NCBI RefSeq assembly: GCF_001887355.1
Contig: NZ_MPIN01000005.1
Coordinates: forward strand, 552,681-616,680
Length of the DNA stretch: 64,000 bases
From: Cystobacter ferrugineus
Lineage (GTDB): Bacteria; Myxococcota; Myxococcia; Myxococcales; Myxococcaceae
Direction of reading: 5' to 3'
Shown: in pieces, positions 685-44,434 of the stretch
Numbering within the stretch: the stretch's first letter is position 1
How the letters are laid out: every line of letters starts with the position of its first letter
Made by a program: the position numbers and the translations under genes
Notes under the pieces: model-generated
Seen by the model: the letters and a program-made list of their open reading frames with translations, nothing else
Databases searched by the model: none
Told to the model about the DNA's origin: nothing

Positions 685-1602
685 ATGGACCAGGTGGAGA
701 GCATGAGGGTGTTCGTGCAGGTCATCGGCAGCGGCAGCTTCGCCGGCGCCGCGCGGCGGCTGCGCCTGTCTCCCGGCATGGTCGGCAAGCACGTCCGAGC
801 CCTCGAGGACCGCCTGGGCGCGATGCTGCTGCATCGCACCACGCGCCGGCTTCGGCTGACCGAGGTCGGCGAGCGCTACTACCGTCGGTGCACGGCGATC
901 CTGGCGGACATCGACGACGCCGAGCGCGAGGCGCGCGCGCGCCAGGCCACGCCGCGTGGCCTGGTCCGCTTGAGCGCACCGGTGTCGTTCGGCGTGCTCC
1001 ACCTCGCCGCGGCGCTGGGCGACTTCGTGGCCGCGCACCCGGCGGTCACCCTCGACATCGGCTTGACCGATCAGTTCGTGGACCTGATGGCCGAGGGCCA
1101 CGACCTGGCACTGCGCATCGGGCAGCTCGGCGACTCGAGCCTGATGGCGCGGCGGCTGGCGCCCTGCCGCATGGTGGCGTGCGCATCGCCCGAGTACCTG
1201 CAACGGCACGGCGCCCCCGAGTCACCGGAGGCGCTGGCGCGACACGACTGCCTGTACTACACGGCGACGGCGGGGCCGGGCCGATGGCGCTTCGTGCGCA
1301 AGAAGCGCGAGCACGTCGTGCAGGTCACCGGCGGTGTCATCGCCAACAGCATGGACCTGCTGCGTGTGCTCGCCGTCAGCGGGCGCGGCATCGTCCTCGG
1401 GCCCACGTTCGTACTCGGCGCCGACCTCGCCTCCGGACGCCTGGTGCCGGTGCTCGACGGGTACGAGCTGCCCGCGCTCACCATTCATGCCGTCTATCCG
1501 CCCGGCCGCAACGTGCCGGCCAAGGTGCGTGCGGTCATCGATTTCCTGGCCACGCGGTTCGGACCCGAGCCGAGCTGGGATCGCTGGCGCGGCCGGACCT
1601 GA
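685..1602 (+). CDS. LysR-family transcriptional regulator (CrgA-like subgroup)
   Basis: 305 residues, the normal LysR length. The N-terminal winged HTH spans residues 1-60 (MDQVESMRVFVQVIGSGSFA, then LHRTTRRLRLTEVGERYY), and the rest is a type-2 periplasmic-binding-like effector domain ending in the conserved LxPALTIHAVYPPGRNVPAKVR region of this subgroup. The open frame extends further upstream, but ATG 685 is chosen because the family always starts about 10 residues before VFVxVxxxGSF. It is divergent from the hydrolase at 588 and probably controls it and itself. A TATGCAC/GTGCATA pair (582-588 and 670-676) brackets the shared promoter region, but I do not see a clear T-N11-A box. Confidence 0.93.
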   Translation: MDQVESMRVFVQVIGSGSFAGAARRLRLSPGMVGKHVRALEDRLGAMLLHRTTRRLRLTEVGERYYRRCTAILADIDDAEREARARQATPRGLVRLSAPVSFGVLHLAAALGDFVAAHPAVTLDIGLTDQFVDLMAEGHDLALRIGQLGDSSLMARRLAPCRMVACASPEYLQRHGAPESPEALARHDCLYYTATAGPGRWRFVRKKREHVVQVTGGVIANSMDLLRVLAVSGRGIVLGPTFVLGADLASGRLVPVLDGYELPALTIHAVYPPGRNVPAKVRAVIDFLATRFGPEPSWDRWRGRT

Positions 1603-2132
1603 GTGACGGACGTTCGCCGCAGTCGGCACACTGGTGACGCAGTAACCCCACTCGTTTCGAGTCCTTTGACACCGTCTCTGGGACACCGTCTCTGGAGGCT
1701 CGAGTCCCTCGTTTCGAGTCCTTTGACACCGTCTCTGGACACCGTCTCTGCCCCCACTTAGCGAGGAGTTGGGATTCAGGGGCTGGCACCGGAGCGTGGT
1801 ACGGCCTTCCTTGCGCCCCTCCTCATTGCACGCGGTACTGACTGCCAATGGCGCCCATGGTTCAACGTGCGCGGCCACCTCACCGAGCGTCCGCGTTGGC
1901 CACGCTCTGCACCAGCCCAGGGCTCCGCTCCACAGCGCCCAGCAGAGCAGGGGCGGGACCTCCTCGGGTTCGGCGCTCGCTTCGTCCTGCTCGAGCATGG
2001 GTCGAAAGGCTAGCGAAGCGCCCGGAACGGTCGCCCTCCCCTGGGACGAACGGAGCGCTGGCGGGGACCAACCGGGGCGGGTGTGGAACACCGACATCGT
2101 CTGCCGCAACGAGGCTTCTATAATGAACACAC
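1603..2132. other. 530-bp spacer without a convincing gene
   Basis: Open frames cross this stretch on both strands but none has a family-like sequence, a ribosome-binding site or a plausible codon pattern. It holds the repeat cluster at 1651-1750 and, just before the histidine kinase, a perfect TATAAT at 2119-2124, only 9 bp from the ATG and without a matching -35, so a weak promoter candidate at best. Confidence 0.6.
1651..1750. repeat. Nested direct repeats: 30-bp unit twice, 13-bp unit four times
   Basis: A 30-bp unit (starting CTCGTTTCGAG, ending CCGTCTCTG) occurs at 1651-1680 and exactly again at 1708-1737. Its last 13 bp, GACACCGTCTCTG, are repeated once more after each copy, giving four occurrences at 1668-1680, 1682-1694, 1725-1737 and 1738-1750. 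The array is intergenic, after the LysR gene. The high identity in non-coding DNA suggests recent duplication or a member of a dispersed genomic repeat family; copy number elsewhere in the genome cannot be judged from here. Confidence 0.85.
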
Positions 2133-4049
2133 ATGCACTCGCCTTCGCTCAAGTCATCGCCCTTCACGTTCGTGACGGGATTGCTCGTCTGGGCCATGAT
2201 TGGCTTCCGGCAGTTGGTGCTCGTGGCCGAAAAACCCTCGCTCCTGGAGGAATGGGCGACGCGGGGGTTGCTCGTTTCCTTCACGGCCTTTGGCATGGCC
2301 TTCTGTCTCAACATGCGCAGTCCCCGGGGCTCGCCCTCCCTCCTCGCGGTGCAGAGCCTCGGGGCACTGGGCGTGGTCGCCACGGGCCGTATCGGTCCCG
2401 AAGGAGGACTCCTCGCCCTCGTGGCGGCGCAGGCACCACTCCTCCTGCCGTCGCGACTCGCGGCCCTGTGGGTCGGAGGATTGTTGTTCTCGAATCTGAC
2501 CGTGCACCTGTGCTTCTTCCCACTGACGGTCGCCTGGACAAGATCGCTGGGCTATGCGGTCCTGTCGGCATTCACCTTCTCCGTGGCCCTCCTCCAGCAA
2601 CGAGAAGCGGACGGACGCCGGGAGCTGGCCCGGGTGAACAAGGAACTCGAGGCCGCCCAGGCACTGCTCGCCGAACGCGAGCGCGAACAGGAGCGGCTGC
2701 GCATCGCCCGGGATCTGCACGACTCGCTGGGCCATCACCTCACGGCCCTGTCGCTCAACCTGGAGGCGGCCTCGCACACCACCCAGGGCCCTGGCGTCGA
2801 GCATGTCCAGCGCGCCCGGAAGGTCTCGCGCACCCTGCTGGGCGAGGTGCGCCAGGTGGTGTCCTCCCTGCGCGAGGGCCACACTCAACGAGGGCTCGTG
2901 GACTGGTCCTCGATGAGGATGTCTCCTCCGTCCAGCCCCTTGCTCCTCCTGCGCACGACTGGAGCCGGGCTCTGGGCCATGGTGGGCATCGGTCAGATGG
3001 CACTCCTCGTGGGCGCTCCGTCACGGCTGGCGGAACCTCCGTTGTTGGTGTGGTTGATCTCCTTCCTGTCTTTTGGCGTGGCGTCCTGGCTCAACGTGGA
3101 CGGGCAACGGGGGTCGTCGTGTTTGCTCGGGGTGCAGGGCCTCGGAGTGCTGGGCGTGCTCGCCACCTCCCACGCTGCTTTCGAGGGGGTGCTGCTCTCC
3201 CTCATCGGCGTACGATTGCCTTTTTGCCTACCACCACGGCGCGCGGCCCTGTGGGTCGTGGGGTTGTCGCTCTCGAGCTCGCTCGTGTTCCTGGCCGTCT
3301 TCTCGCCGTGGCCCGCGTGGACGCGGGTGGTCAACAGCACGAGCCTCCTGGTCTTCAGCTTCAACGCGGCCCTCCTCCAGCAACGAGAAGCGGACGGACG
3401 CCGGGAGCTGGCCCGGGTGAACAAGGAACTCGAGGCCGCCCAGGCACTGCTCGCCGAGCGCGAGCGCGAACAGGAGCGGCTGCGCATCGCCCGGGATCTG
3501 CACGACTCGCTGGGCCATCACCTCACGGCCCTGTCGCTCAACCTGGAGGTGGCCTCGCACACCACCCAGGGCCCTGGCATCGAGCATGTCCAGCGCGCCC
3601 GGAAGGTCTCGCGCACCCTGCTGGGCGAGGTGCGCCAGGTGGTGTCCTCCCTGCGCGAGGGCCACACTCACCTGGCCCCCGCCCTGCGCTCTCTGGTACG
3701 CGACGTGCCCGGGCTCGTCATCCACCTGGAAGTCCCGGAGGACCTGTCCCTCTCCAGACCCGAGGCGGCCCACTCCGTCTTCAGTTGCGTGCAGGAAGTC
3801 ATCACCAACACCCTGCGTCATGCGAGCGCGAGCCACTTGTGGATCGAAGTCACCGCCGCCGAGGCGGGGGGCGTCCAGGTGCATGCGAGGGATGACGGGC
3901 GGGGGGCGTTCACGCTCAAGCCCGGCGCGGGCTTGTCCGGCATGCGCGAGCGCTTCACTCGCCTGGGCGGTCGCGTGGAGTTGCACCCCGTGGAGGGACA
4001 AGGCATGGAGCTGGTGGCCTGGCTGCCGGATTCGGCGGTGCTCGGGTGA
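2133..4049 (+). CDS. NarL-type (HisKA_3) histidine kinase with duplicated sensor and DHp units
   Basis: 638 residues. Order: membrane sensor 1 (about residues 10-155), coiled linker and HisKA_3 DHp 1 with His196 (RDLHDSLGHH), a short junction around residue 252, membrane sensor 2 (about 270-410), DHp 2 with His457, and one HATPase_c domain (N-box Asn559 in TNTLRHAS; G1 box DDGRG at 587-591). The ordinary family has one sensor, one DHp and one ATPase domain in 350-450 residues. The DHp-coding segments 2586-2887 and 3369-3670 are almost identical (I see three or four mismatches) with a 783-bp period, while the two sensors have diverged. No response regulator is adjacent, so it is an orphan kinase. 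DHp 1 could only be phosphorylated by the downstream ATPase domain or by a partner subunit. Confidence 0.85.
   Translation: MHSPSLKSSPFTFVTGLLVWAMIGFRQLVLVAEKPSLLEEWATRGLLVSFTAFGMAFCLNMRSPRGSPSLLAVQSLGALGVVATGRIGPEGGLLALVAAQAPLLLPSRLAALWVGGLLFSNLTVHLCFFPLTVAWTRSLGYAVLSAFTFSVALLQQREADGRRELARVNKELEAAQALLAEREREQERLRIARDLHDSLGHHLTALSLNLEAASHTTQGPGVEHVQRARKVSRTLLGEVRQVVSSLREGHTQRGLVDWSSMRMSPPSSPLLLLRTTGAGLWAMVGIGQMALLVGAPSRLAEPPLLVWLISFLSFGVASWLNVDGQRGSSCLLGVQGLGVLGVLATSHAAFEGVLLSLIGVRLPFCLPPRRAALWVVGLSLSSSLVFLAVFSPWPAWTRVVNSTSLLVFSFNAALLQQREADGRRELARVNKELEAAQALLAEREREQERLRIARDLHDSLGHHLTALSLNLEVASHTTQGPGIEHVQRARKVSRTLLGEVRQVVSSLREGHTHLAPALRSLVRDVPGLVIHLEVPEDLSLSRPEAAHSVFSCVQEVITNTLRHASASHLWIEVTAAEAGGVQVHARDDGRGAFTLKPGAGLSGMRERFTRLGGRVELHPVEGQGMELVAWLPDSAVLG
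2586..2887 (+). repeat. First copy of a 302-bp near-identical intragenic repeat
   Basis: It encodes the coiled linker and DHp domain of the kinase and matches 3369-3670 at a fixed offset of 783 bp (261 codons). The few differences I see include an A/G near 2687, C/T in the GCG/GTG codon after LNLE, and G/A in the V/I codon before EHVQ. The flanking sensor-coding DNA is clearly diverged, so similarity stops sharply at the repeat ends. Confidence 0.9.
3369..3670 (+). repeat. Second copy of the 302-bp near-identical intragenic repeat
   Basis: Partner of 2586-2887. It ends at the same GAGGGCCACACTCA sequence, after which this copy continues into the ATPase domain whereas the first copy switches into the second sensor. 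Confidence 0.9.
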
Positions 4050-4292
4050 GCCGCGAACGTCGTTGCACCCAGGCCGCGTGAGCGAGCATTCCGGGCTCAT
4101 CCATTTTTCATGGTTTTAGCGGTTTTCCTTTACAGCCTAGATTTCCCGGTGCCATGTTCCCGGAGCCCCCGGGTTCAGGGGGGGTCCTGACTCTGGCAGC
4201 GCGTCCGCGGCTTCCTTCCGCTCCGATGCCGGGCTCAGCTGATCGGCCTTCACGCGCCCGTCACGCGCATTCCCATTCCGGGAGGTTGTCTC

Positions 4293-7200
4293 ATGTTCGA
4301 GTCTCACCGCCGCCGAGCGAGGTTGCTCGCGACCACGTTGCTCTCCACGGTGGCCGGGGCCGGCCTGTCGGCCCTGCCCGCTCACGCCGCCCTCGGCTCC
4401 GTCACCAGTGCCTCCCTCTCGGGTGACACCCTCACCCTCACTGTCGGCGGCGACAAGCTCCTTGTCCAGGCCCTGCGCCCGGACATCGTCAAGGTGGACT
4501 ACCGCCCCGGTGGCGTCGCCGATCCCCCCACCGCCGTCATCGATCCCGCCAAGACGTGGGCCGCGGGCAACATCACCTCCGCCGACATGGCGTCCAATCC
4601 CATCGTGGTCACCACGGCGCAGCTGACCGTGAAGATCAGCCGGAATCCCGCCCGCCTCTCCGTCTTCGACGCCACGGGAGCGCTGGTGCTGAGCGAGCAG
4701 GCCGCCGAGGGCGTGTATGCGGACGGGGTGAAGTTCAACCATGGGTCCGGACAGGCGTTCTACGGCATCACCGGCAACCCGGTGCCCTGGGCCGAGAAGG
4801 ATCCCAAGCAGAACCTCGCCGAGGGCATGCAGCGCAACGACGGCGGCCGGGTCAACGCCAACATGCAGGGGGACGGTGGGGCTCCGCTCGCCTTCACCAA
4901 CCGTTATGGGTTGCTGGTGGACTCCATCGATGGGGACTTCGCCATCACCGACACCACCCTGGAGTTCAGTGGCGTGTCGACTCGCAACGTCGCGTACTAC
5001 GTCCTGGTCGGTCCGCCCCGGCAGGTGATGGCGGGCGTCGCGGAGATCTCCGGCAAGCCCGCCCTGTCACCCAAGTGGGCCCTGGGGCTCAACAACAGCG
5101 AGTGGGGCACCACGCAGACGGAGGTCACCTCGATCGTCCAGGGCTACCGGGATCGGAAGATCCCCCTGGATGCCTTCACCCTGGACTTCGACTTCAAGGC
5201 CTGGGGCGAGGACGACTATGGCGAGTTCCGGTGGAACTCGACCTCCGCCAGCGGCAACGTGAACCCGAACAAGTTCCCCAGCGGGGCGTCCGGGACGTTC
5301 GCCCGGGACATGGCGGCCAGGGGAGTCATGTTGATGGGGATCATGAAGCCCCGGGTGATCGTCGGGAAGGCGGGCGGAGGCACCACGGCGCAGGGACAGT
5401 GGGCGCGCACCAACAACTGCTTCTACCCGGGCCTGGCCGATTACACCGAGTACTTCTCCGGCCGGCCCGCCAACGACGTCGACTTCTCCAAGCAGACGTG
5501 CCGTGACTGGTATTGGCAGCACTCCCGGACGCTGTTCGACGGGGGCATCGCGGGCTGGTGGAACGACGAGGCCGACGAGGCGAACGGATTCATCTTCAAC
5601 AGCCTCCAGCACACCAACATGCAGCGGTCGCTGTATGACGGGCAGCGGGCGTACTCGGACCGGCGGGTGTTCTCGCTCAACCGCAACTTCTACCTCGGCG
5701 CCCAGCGCTACGGCTACGGCATGTGGTCCGGCGACATCGAATCCGGGTTCGGCAACATGGCCGATCAGCGCACCCGCATGCTCACCAGCATCAACATCGG
5801 CGAGAGCAAATGGGGCATGGACATCGGCGGCTTCTTCGGGGATCCGTCCTCGGAGAACTACGCGCGTTGGATGCAGTTCGGCGCGTTCGTGCCCATCTAC
5901 CGGGTCCATGGCGTAGATGGCAAGCAGCGCCAACCGTGGGTCTACGGGGCCACCGCGGAGAGCGCGGCCAGGCGCGCGATCGAGCTGCGCAGCCGGTTGA
6001 TGCCCTACCTGTATGCCCATGAGCGGATCAACTACGAGACGGGTATCGGTCTGGTGCGGCCCCTGTTCTACGACTACCCCACCGATCCGAACGCCGCGAA
6101 CCTCACCAGCGAGTGGATGTTCGGCGAGTCGCTGCTCGTGGCGCCCGTCGTCGAGCCGGGGGCTGCCAGCAAGCAGGTGTACCTGCCCGCGGGCACCTGG
6201 ATCGACTACACCCGTGGCTCCGTCTACACGGGCCCCCTCACGTTCAACTACCCGGTCAACGCGTCCACCTGGCAGGACATCCCGCTGTTCGTCAAGGCGG
6301 GCGCCATCCTCCCGACCCAGGAGGTGCTGCAGTACGTGAGCGAGAAGCCCGTCAAGCAGATCGACCTCGATGTCTTCCCCACCACGGCCCGGAGCGAGTT
6401 CACCCTCTACGACGACGACGGCCTGACCCGGGCCTATGAGAACGGGGTCTTCTTCAAGCAGCGCATCACCGCGCAGCGCACGAGCACCTCCGTCACCGTG
6501 GAGACCCAGGCGAAGACCGGCAGCTTCAGCCCGGCGCTCACCCACTACATCGTGAAGGTCAACGCCACGACGGGCACGGCGGCGCGGATCAACGGGACCG
6601 CCCCCACCCGCTACGGCGACCTCGCGGCGCTCAAGGCCGCCACGGGCGAGGGGTGGACGACGGGTGTCGATGTCTATGGTCCGTACACCGCGGTGCGCAT
6701 CGCGGCTGGGGTAGCGCGGACGGTCGTGGTCGACGGAACCCCGAGCACTCCCCCCCCTCCCCCCCTGACGAGCGTGCTCGAGGCGGAGGACGCGGCGCTG
6801 TCCTCGGGCGCGATCGCCCTGAGCGACCACCCGGGCTACTCCGGGCGCGGGTTCGTCGCCGGATACTGGAACTCCGGAGCGAGCACCAGGTTCACCTTGC
6901 AGGCCAGCACGGCGGGCACCTACTCCGCGACCCTGAAGTACAGCAACGCCAACGGCTCGGCCAGGACGCTCACCCTGGACGTGAATGGCGCGCGCACCCA
7001 GCTCACCCTGCCCGCGACGGCGAATTGGGACACCTGGTCGACCTACACCGCGCGAATCCCGCTGAACGCGGGCACCAATACCCTCTCCTACGTCTACGCC
7101 CCGGGAGACTCGGCCCACGTCAACCTCGACTCCCTGACGATCTCACCCCTCCCGACGATTGTGCTCGAGGCGGAGGACGCGGTGCTGTCCTCGGGCGCGC

Positions 7201-7538
7201 TCGCCCTGAACGACCACACGGGCTACTCCGGACGCGGGTTCGTCGCCGGGTACTGGAACTCCGGCGCGGCCACCACGTTCTCCTTGCAGGCCAGCACGGC
7301 GGGCACCTACTCCGCGACCCTGAAGTACAGCAACGCCAACGGCTCGGCCAGGACGCTCACCCTGGAGGTGAATGGCGCGCGCACCCAGCTCACCCTGCCC
7401 GCGACGGCGAATTGGGACACCTGGTCGACCTACACCGCGCGAATCCCGCTGAACGCGGGCACCAATACCCTCTCCTACGTCTACGCCCCGGGAGACTCGG
7501 CCCACGTCAACCTCGACTCCTTGACGATCGCACCGTAG
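4293..7538 (+). CDS. Secreted GH31 alpha-glycosidase with two C-terminal CBM35/CBM6-like modules
   Basis: 1081 residues. A Sec signal peptide (RRR, hydrophobic core, cut after PAHA at about residue 32) is followed by a galactose-mutarotase-like N-domain, the GH31 barrel and a Pro-rich linker (TPSTPPPPP). The likely nucleophile is Asp425 in GWWNDEADE, and the acid/base is Asp481 in WSGDIES, followed by the family signature MDIGGFFG. Two roughly 125-residue beta-sandwich CBMs start at residues 828 and 957 (EAEDA...GYSGRGFV...LDSLTI). GH31 enzymes release or transfer alpha-linked glucose or xylose; the exact linkage cannot be read here. GGGAGG upstream supports ATG 4293. A hairpin follows the stop. 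It probably acts outside the cell on glucans. Confidence 0.93.
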   Translation: MFESHRRRARLLATTLLSTVAGAGLSALPAHAALGSVTSASLSGDTLTLTVGGDKLLVQALRPDIVKVDYRPGGVADPPTAVIDPAKTWAAGNITSADMASNPIVVTTAQLTVKISRNPARLSVFDATGALVLSEQAAEGVYADGVKFNHGSGQAFYGITGNPVPWAEKDPKQNLAEGMQRNDGGRVNANMQGDGGAPLAFTNRYGLLVDSIDGDFAITDTTLEFSGVSTRNVAYYVLVGPPRQVMAGVAEISGKPALSPKWALGLNNSEWGTTQTEVTSIVQGYRDRKIPLDAFTLDFDFKAWGEDDYGEFRWNSTSASGNVNPNKFPSGASGTFARDMAARGVMLMGIMKPRVIVGKAGGGTTAQGQWARTNNCFYPGLADYTEYFSGRPANDVDFSKQTCRDWYWQHSRTLFDGGIAGWWNDEADEANGFIFNSLQHTNMQRSLYDGQRAYSDRRVFSLNRNFYLGAQRYGYGMWSGDIESGFGNMADQRTRMLTSINIGESKWGMDIGGFFGDPSSENYARWMQFGAFVPIYRVHGVDGKQRQPWVYGATAESAARRAIELRSRLMPYLYAHERINYETGIGLVRPLFYDYPTDPNAANLTSEWMFGESLLVAPVVEPGAASKQVYLPAGTWIDYTRGSVYTGPLTFNYPVNASTWQDIPLFVKAGAILPTQEVLQYVSEKPVKQIDLDVFPTTARSEFTLYDDDGLTRAYENGVFFKQRITAQRTSTSVTVETQAKTGSFSPALTHYIVKVNATTGTAARINGTAPTRYGDLAALKAATGEGWTTGVDVYGPYTAVRIAAGVARTVVVDGTPSTPPPPPLTSVLEAEDAALSSGAIALSDHPGYSGRGFVAGYWNSGASTRFTLQASTAGTYSATLKYSNANGSARTLTLDVNGARTQLTLPATANWDTWSTYTARIPLNAGTNTLSYVYAPGDSAHVNLDSLTISPLPTIVLEAEDAVLSSGALALNDHTGYSGRGFVAGYWNSGAATTFSLQASTAGTYSATLKYSNANGSARTLTLEVNGARTQLTLPATANWDTWSTYTARIPLNAGTNTLSYVYAPGDSAHVNLDSLTIAP
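6774..7538 (+). repeat. Tandem duplicated CBM-coding unit (387-bp period)
   Basis: Unit 1 begins at GTGCTCGAGGCGGAGGA (6774) and unit 2 at 7161 with the same sequence. Long stretches are identical at DNA level, with only scattered substitutions, so the module was duplicated recently, in frame, at the 3' end of the gene. Confidence 0.9.
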
Positions 7539-44242: not shown

Positions 44243-44434
44243 GAATCTTTGACTCGGACAAGGTCGGCTGTCTCGACCCCTGCCCTGCCGGGAGGTGATG
44301 TCTGGGACGAGACCGAACCTCCCAGGACCCATGGTCCACCTTGACTTGTCTGGTCGAATCCGCTCCCCTGAGGACTCAGGAGATGGACGCGCGCACCGCG
44401 GTCTGGTGCCTGGGGCCAATGTAAGGAGCCACGC

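Follow-up and report, generated by a model that had tools for sequence, protein, structure and literature searches.

The gene at positions 2133–4049 (+ strand) of the window, by which we mean the whole 64,000-nucleotide stretch of DNA analysed, encodes a DesK-like (HisKA_3) membrane histidine kinase in which the half made up of the sensor and the DHp domain is doubled in frame. Its 638-codon open reading frame is uninterrupted throughout and, as read from the ORF and Pfam, runs in the order sensor 1, DHp 1, sensor 2, DHp 2 and CA; the stop-to-stop frame around it measures 640 codons, and therefore no additional N-terminal part is concealed upstream. The initial annotation had described a pair of membrane sensors and a pair of HisKA_3 domains with a single HATPase_c domain in this chain, and Pfam confirmed the domain composition in the 638-residue product, with two HisKA_3 stretches (66.7 and 66.4 bits against a cut-off of 24; whole-protein E 2e-31) and a single HATPase_c match at residues 549–633 (33.2 bits against a cut-off of 26.4).

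Along the + strand, sensor unit 1 (2133–2588, residues 1–152), supported by the structure model, hydropathy and invariant residues, is followed by DHp 1 with its coiled coil (2585–2887; His196 at 2718–2720). A short junction (2888–2912) then leads into sensor unit 2 (2913–3371), which begins at a probable former start codon, Met261, and is followed by DHp 2 with its coiled coil (3368–3670; His457 at 3501–3503). The sole HATPase_c, or CA, domain (3777–4031) closes the chain with the alignment motifs Asn559, DDGRG at 587–591 and GAGLSGMRERF; both histidines, Asn559 and DDGRG occupy the positions first assigned to them. The N and G boxes and the HATPase_c domain lie behind DHp 2, and none of these follows DHp 1. 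With two DHps in one chain by Pfam, the window kinase breaks the rule of one DHp per chain for HisKA_3 kinases.

Histidine may substitute for Q in the DxxxQ motif, and H stands at that position in both DHps, which read HDSLGH, and in the aligned relatives, which read HDS[LV]GH. DxxxQ following the His has been described as a phosphatase motif (PMC3510030). All 32 of the 32 family-invariant DHp columns of a 28-row family alignment are retained by both copies, a test that is independent for DHp 1 only, since the alignment counts unit 2 among its rows; with this retention, DHp 1 as a degenerate copy was ruled out. Sensor 1 retains 8/8 invariant and 10/12 nearly invariant sensor residues and sensor 2 retains 8/8 (by construction) and 9/12, and third-position G+C lies between 0.81 and 0.89 across all parts of the ORF; the flanks have 0.61 and 0.65. 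The original reading of function, one ATPase domain for two phospho-acceptor sites, stands, and an integration of two inputs by the two sensors is plausible from the sequence; the suggestion that DHp 1 serves as a dominant-negative platform finds no support, DHp 1 being intact and nearly identical to DHp 2.

Relatives of the kinase occur in 40 of 96 family genomes, its own included (whole-protein search, E ≤ 1e-25). When 34 single-unit relatives were screened with a DHp profile, every one had an ORF with one DHp, and none (0/34) had two. A wider genome scan confirmed at least 576 relatives, and among the best 80 of these at least 576, the profile screen returned a DHp-bearing ORF in 80/80 and two DHps in 0/80; as a control, the window kinase was run alongside the 34 and the 80 and gave two DHps. 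The profile screen was used instead of a strict N-box pattern, which passed 16 ORFs of the 80 loci, and the sets of 34 and 80 may overlap in species. Fifteen of the best 80 relatives belong to the Myxococcaceae, at 44–53% (including Corallococcus, Myxococcus, Pyxidicoccus and Citreicoccus). The other 65 come mostly from Xanthomonadales-type bacteria (L104–L168; 38–48% in the best segment), where the kinase family recurs far from the Myxococcaceae. In the 96 genomes, the window ORF is the sole frame with two PF07730 (HisKA_3) matches among the matches listed. None of three congeners has the double form (0/3): G002 and G003 hold the single-unit paralogue only (E ≤ 1e-25), and G001 gave no kinase match at E ≤ 1e-25. 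The double form was found in one genome only.

A predicted structure of modest confidence (mean pLDDT 73, pTM 0.45, linker below 50), whose alignment has stray residues only and no rows over unit 1, assigns one and the same arrangement of helices to the two units, namely six helices of which the sixth continues as a long coiled coil. In the model, this coiled coil runs into DHp helix 1 and then helix 2, and a CA fold follows the second unit only. The modelled helices of sensor 1 comprise residues 10–33, 37–62, 68–83, 88–104, 107–128 and 131 onward, and the hydropathy maxima of the helices range from 1.12 to 1.82 in sensor 1 and from 1.58 to 2.11 in sensor 2. Six membrane helices per sensor are therefore likely on the model, which would place both DHps on the cytoplasmic side. 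The count is likely rather than proven because a plain hydropathy scan (cut-off 1.5) finds fewer peaks, two in sensor 1, four in sensor 2 and two to four in three relatives.

At the DNA level, a feature that the initial annotation does not mention, the two DHps are underlain by a direct repeat, 2585–2887 against 3368–3670, with 3 mismatches in 303 bp (300/303 identical) and a period of 783 bp, equal to 261 codons. The edges of the repeat are sharp: identity is at chance level directly behind it and about 60% before it, the latter as expected because the sensors are related. Divergence between the DHp copies is dN 0.014 and dS 0.012 (NG86), while the two sensors agree at 68 of 155 aligned residues, indicating that the sensors split long ago and that the DHps were copied recently. 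Six amino-acid states are common to both DHps and absent from the 33 relatives compared, a count that leaves out the distant relative L013. DNA identity between the window DHps and the DHp of this genome's paralogous kinase is 79–81%. The simplest reading of these values would be a recent gene conversion between the two DHps, and their near-identity may have come from chance conversion without selection. For the gene as a whole, the best reading appears to be a partial tandem duplication in frame, in which the sensors are old and the DHps recently homogenised.

The single-unit pairs of Myxococcaceae have the same sensor family and the same DHp as the window kinase and differ from it in having one unit and a regulator directly behind. 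In 32 of the 34 relatives, the kinase is followed on its own strand by a NarL-type regulator no more than 150 nt away; in one of the remaining two the distance is 215 nt, and in the other the kinase stands at a contig end. The neighbours of the window kinase are a LysR regulator (685–1602) and a GH31 glycosidase with CBMs (4293–7538). That no response regulator is adjacent, as first noted, was borne out by tblastn with the family regulator over the whole window (best E = 6), which also gave no remnant of a lost regulator near the kinase. Similarly, we found no remnant of a lost first CA near the kinase, the best match in the window besides the gene itself having E 0.059 at 44268. In one relative, from G010, the phospho-acceptor His segment is missing and the kinase runs in one frame into its own regulator (L016:928–2550); this 541-residue frame holds a sensor, a HATPase_c match under the cut-off, a receiver and a LuxR HTH.

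The genome that carries the double kinase also holds an intact single-unit kinase–regulator pair on contig C23 (C23:4455–6253), whose kinase shares 56% identity with the unit 2 plus CA portion of the window kinase. Between the window DHps and that of C23, 76–77 of 100 residues are identical, and the block around the His (LHDSLGHHLTALSLN) is fully identical. A close regulator of its own elsewhere in the genome was considered and rejected: with 150 of 299 candidates scored, the only close subfamily regulator was the neighbour of the C23 kinase, and the C9 regulator came next with 43% identity. The simplest guess would be crosstalk from the window kinase to the C23 regulator, a partner that we infer from family membership alone. 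The region behind the C23 pair (L073:2752–2876 and 2905–4358) holds a Tox-REase-2 protein, another ORF of no clear family and then, in two pieces with 88% and 94% identity, a further copy of the last 41 residues of the regulator; perhaps an insertion at the 3' end of the regulator duplicated that end.

By sequence (PDB, E 5.7e-17) and by fold, the closest solved relative is DesK of Bacillus subtilis (DesK–DesR), the fold matches having 23–28% identity; the phmmer match to DesK covers residues 422–631 only, and the solved full DHp–CA chains are 197–224 residues long. Like the window kinase, DesK joins a HisKA_3 DHp and a CA to a polytopic membrane sensor, and a NarL-type regulator is common to the DesK system and to the relatives of the window kinase. 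DesK has one sensor and one DHp, against two of each here, and is described as having five transmembrane helices (PMC8301901), against six per window sensor in the model. It works as a dimer whose phosphotransfer state is reported to be asymmetric, in that one CA touches helix 1 of the partner chain, its counterpart stays free and one regulator is bound per dimer (PMC5231405). Because one DesK CA is engaged in this state while the other is free, one CA can suffice, and by analogy one CA per DHp pair would be compatible with the chemistry.

In domain content, the closest precedent is the engineered EnvZ[AAB], with two DHps and one CA per chain, of which the window kinase is a natural look-alike; EnvZ[AAB] differs in being hand-made, in being HisKA rather than HisKA_3 and in having no second membrane sensor between its DHps. 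The form is reportedly traced to Qin et al. 2000, and its phosphate is said to be carried by the first DHp. In mammalian cells, EnvZm2[AAB], with the extra DHp fused in front, is described as giving an output above wild type and EnvZm1[AAB] a lower output, suggesting phosphatase activity; the m1 and m2 variants seem to bear further substitutions (PMC8971529). TodS, RedCDEF and other two-transmitter proteins or loci likewise have two phospho-acceptor domains per chain or locus, but, unlike the window kinase, they carry receivers between the two transmitters (TRT; T1-R1R2-T2-R3), and two transmitter domains are reported in only two of 15,704 non-hybrid kinases (PMC3018481). Myxobacterial two-component fusions arising by tandem duplication and gene fusion are on record (STAUR_6958, TRTTRT), as is a T,TR/TT change involving Adeh_1473 (PMC4603909). 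In the portions of the open-licence literature covered, we found no naturally occurring kinase that combines two DHps with a single CA; what turned up there was the EnvZ construct and a 'tandem DHp and CA' of an unrelated kind.

For the working of the protein, we tentatively favour an intrachain pseudo-dimer over a homodimer through DHp 2, with His196 as the acceptor and a signal passing to the C23 regulator; pairing, acceptor and partner are all conjectural, and we give this combination somewhat less than an even chance. The nearly identical DHp 1 and DHp 2, borne on the same coiled coil to the membrane, would form a four-helix bundle within one chain, with helix 2 of DHp 1 ending close to the membrane and a linker of about 20 residues returning into sensor 2. 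The CA behind DHp 2 would then reach over to the opposite side of this bundle to phosphorylate His196 of DHp 1, as the DesK CA engages the other protomer, while His457 would remain as the docking or phosphatase side. The phosphate would go to the C23 regulator, the sole close one found in the genome, and the long-diverged sensors 1 and 2 would act as two non-identical halves of one receptor. A broader form of the proposal, which we hold more loosely, is that the two sensors make up a single asymmetric receptor, with the DHps held identical by conversion for pairing, a one-way signal through His196 and a borrowed regulator.

An ordinary homodimer is the alternative that survives best, and we still consider it unlikely. 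Here DHp 2 would pair with DHp 2 (and DHp 1 with DHp 1) and the CA would phosphorylate His457, like its counterpart in the single-unit relatives, leaving sensor 1 and DHp 1 as an accessory input or as a regulator-binding or phosphatase module. Unit 2 plus CA is a complete family kinase with its motifs, and the sequence is compatible with DHp 2–DHp 2 pairing in that nothing forbids it; however, DHp 1 is near-identical to DHp 2 and adjacent to it, which would make its local concentration very high and pairing within the chain a strong competitor.

Duplicated kinases are expected to become insulated, and sensors that diverge while the pairing domain is held identical would represent the reverse of that insulation. 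Histidine kinases are mostly dimers of equal chains that are asymmetric in action (DesK: PMC5231405); in a naturally occurring chain that has a pair of acceptor domains but a single motor, this asymmetry would be built into the gene. Such a chain would allow the acceptor His, the share of each sensor and the choice between cis and trans phosphorylation to be studied one at a time, with no need for heterodimers.

It seems improbable that the gene is a decaying orphan, in other words an accidental fusion that has lost its regulator and is becoming a pseudogene. A distribution limited to one species, the lack of a regulator beside the kinase and the loss of the His-bearing segment in the G010 relative would all fit such decay, but the 638 codons are open with uniform third-position G+C, sensor 1 retains its invariant residues and the DHp and CA motifs are intact.

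The junction at 2888–2912 probably represents the 5' leader that unit 2 once had. The paralogous kinase genes of this genome and of two congeners (3/3; L002, L009, L010) all have GGGCTCGTAGACTGG followed by nine bases and the start codon, a leader not seen in the G010 relative L016. In the window, GGGCTCGTGGACTGG stands at 2892–2906, four bases past the repeat, and is followed by six bases and then ATG AGG; it matches the leader of the paralogous gene at 14/15 positions. Searching the window for the leader with the variable base open and two mismatches allowed gave 2 matches, of which only 2892–2906 is exact, with 0.69 expected by chance at this laxity. Protein matches to the C23 kinase and the congener kinases start at residue 252–254, ahead of the old start. 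Taken together, the leader match and the protein matches that begin ahead of Met261 suggest that unit 2 was most likely once an independent gene with its leader, in front of which unit 1 was joined in frame; the fusion could have come about either by partial tandem duplication of leader, sensor and DHp or by deletion between two tandem genes. In the sensor tree, sensors 1 and 2 are sisters with support of 98/83, both on long branches about which the program warns; when either is left out, in trees without the distant L013, the remaining sensor groups with those same relatives (SH-aLRT 92 and 89). An origin of unit 1 from another kinase family was rejected, since its sensor shares a clade with unit 2.

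At the junction, the former leader and its start codon seem to have been retained, which would suit a second start at Met261 giving a normal kinase that is modulated by the long form; we regard two such products as slightly less credible still than a decaying gene, given that a promoter scan of 1600–4320 returned 0 promoter-like sites (0.1 expected) and that TAGACT, a possible −10 element in the leader of the paralogues, is TGGACT in the window. On sequence reading, TATAAT at 2119–2124 (+ strand), 8 nt before the ATG of the long form, may be a −10 element of a near-leaderless start.

We also looked for a mis-join with a separate full kinase upstream, against which both the DHp matches in the assembly and the position of the junction speak. 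Elsewhere in the assembly, the DHp DNA has one long match, at 81% and inside a complete single-unit kinase on another contig, together with three matches of 26–40 bp; a third close copy (≥98%) is absent from the assembly, which has the two window copies only, and a mis-join is unlikely for this reason. The step from DHp 1 to unit 2 (2888) lies outside the repeat. An artefact merging two kinase genes via the 303-bp repeat, whose length is about that of a short read or read pair in a draft genome of 42 contigs, is highly improbable, since a join through the repeat would yield sensor 1–DHp–CA, not DHp 1 followed by the leader of unit 2, and since neither a stray CA nor, among the 150 of 299 candidates scored, a second close regulator was found in the assembly.

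By comparison with the congeners, the kinase gene occupies a variable spot. About 22 kb separates the flanking LysR (97%) and GH31 (95%) genes in G002; homology to the window ends at 1613 and restarts at 4113–4273, with no G002 match between 1613 and 4113 except short intergenic repeats. G003 matches the window on the GH31 side, starting at 4113, but its best LysR is only 47% identical, and G001 has a close match to neither flank. The G002 interval (G002:C1, approximately 4.930–4.951 Mb; L086 and L087) holds other ORFs in its roughly 22 kb, against 2.7 kb in the window, marking the stretch between LysR and GH31 as a site of gene turnover. The gap between LysR and the kinase contains short direct repeats, GAGTCCTTTGACACCGTCTC (window 1651–1750), which occur with at most 1 mismatch at 5 sites of the genome, each time on the + strand of the contig concerned, and also in the 22-kb G002 interval. 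At its C-terminal end (6746–7534), the GH31 protein carries two tandem carbohydrate-binding modules, apparently near-identical repeats, and cross-matches of the window copies to the other copy in G002 reach 92.8 and 93.3%.
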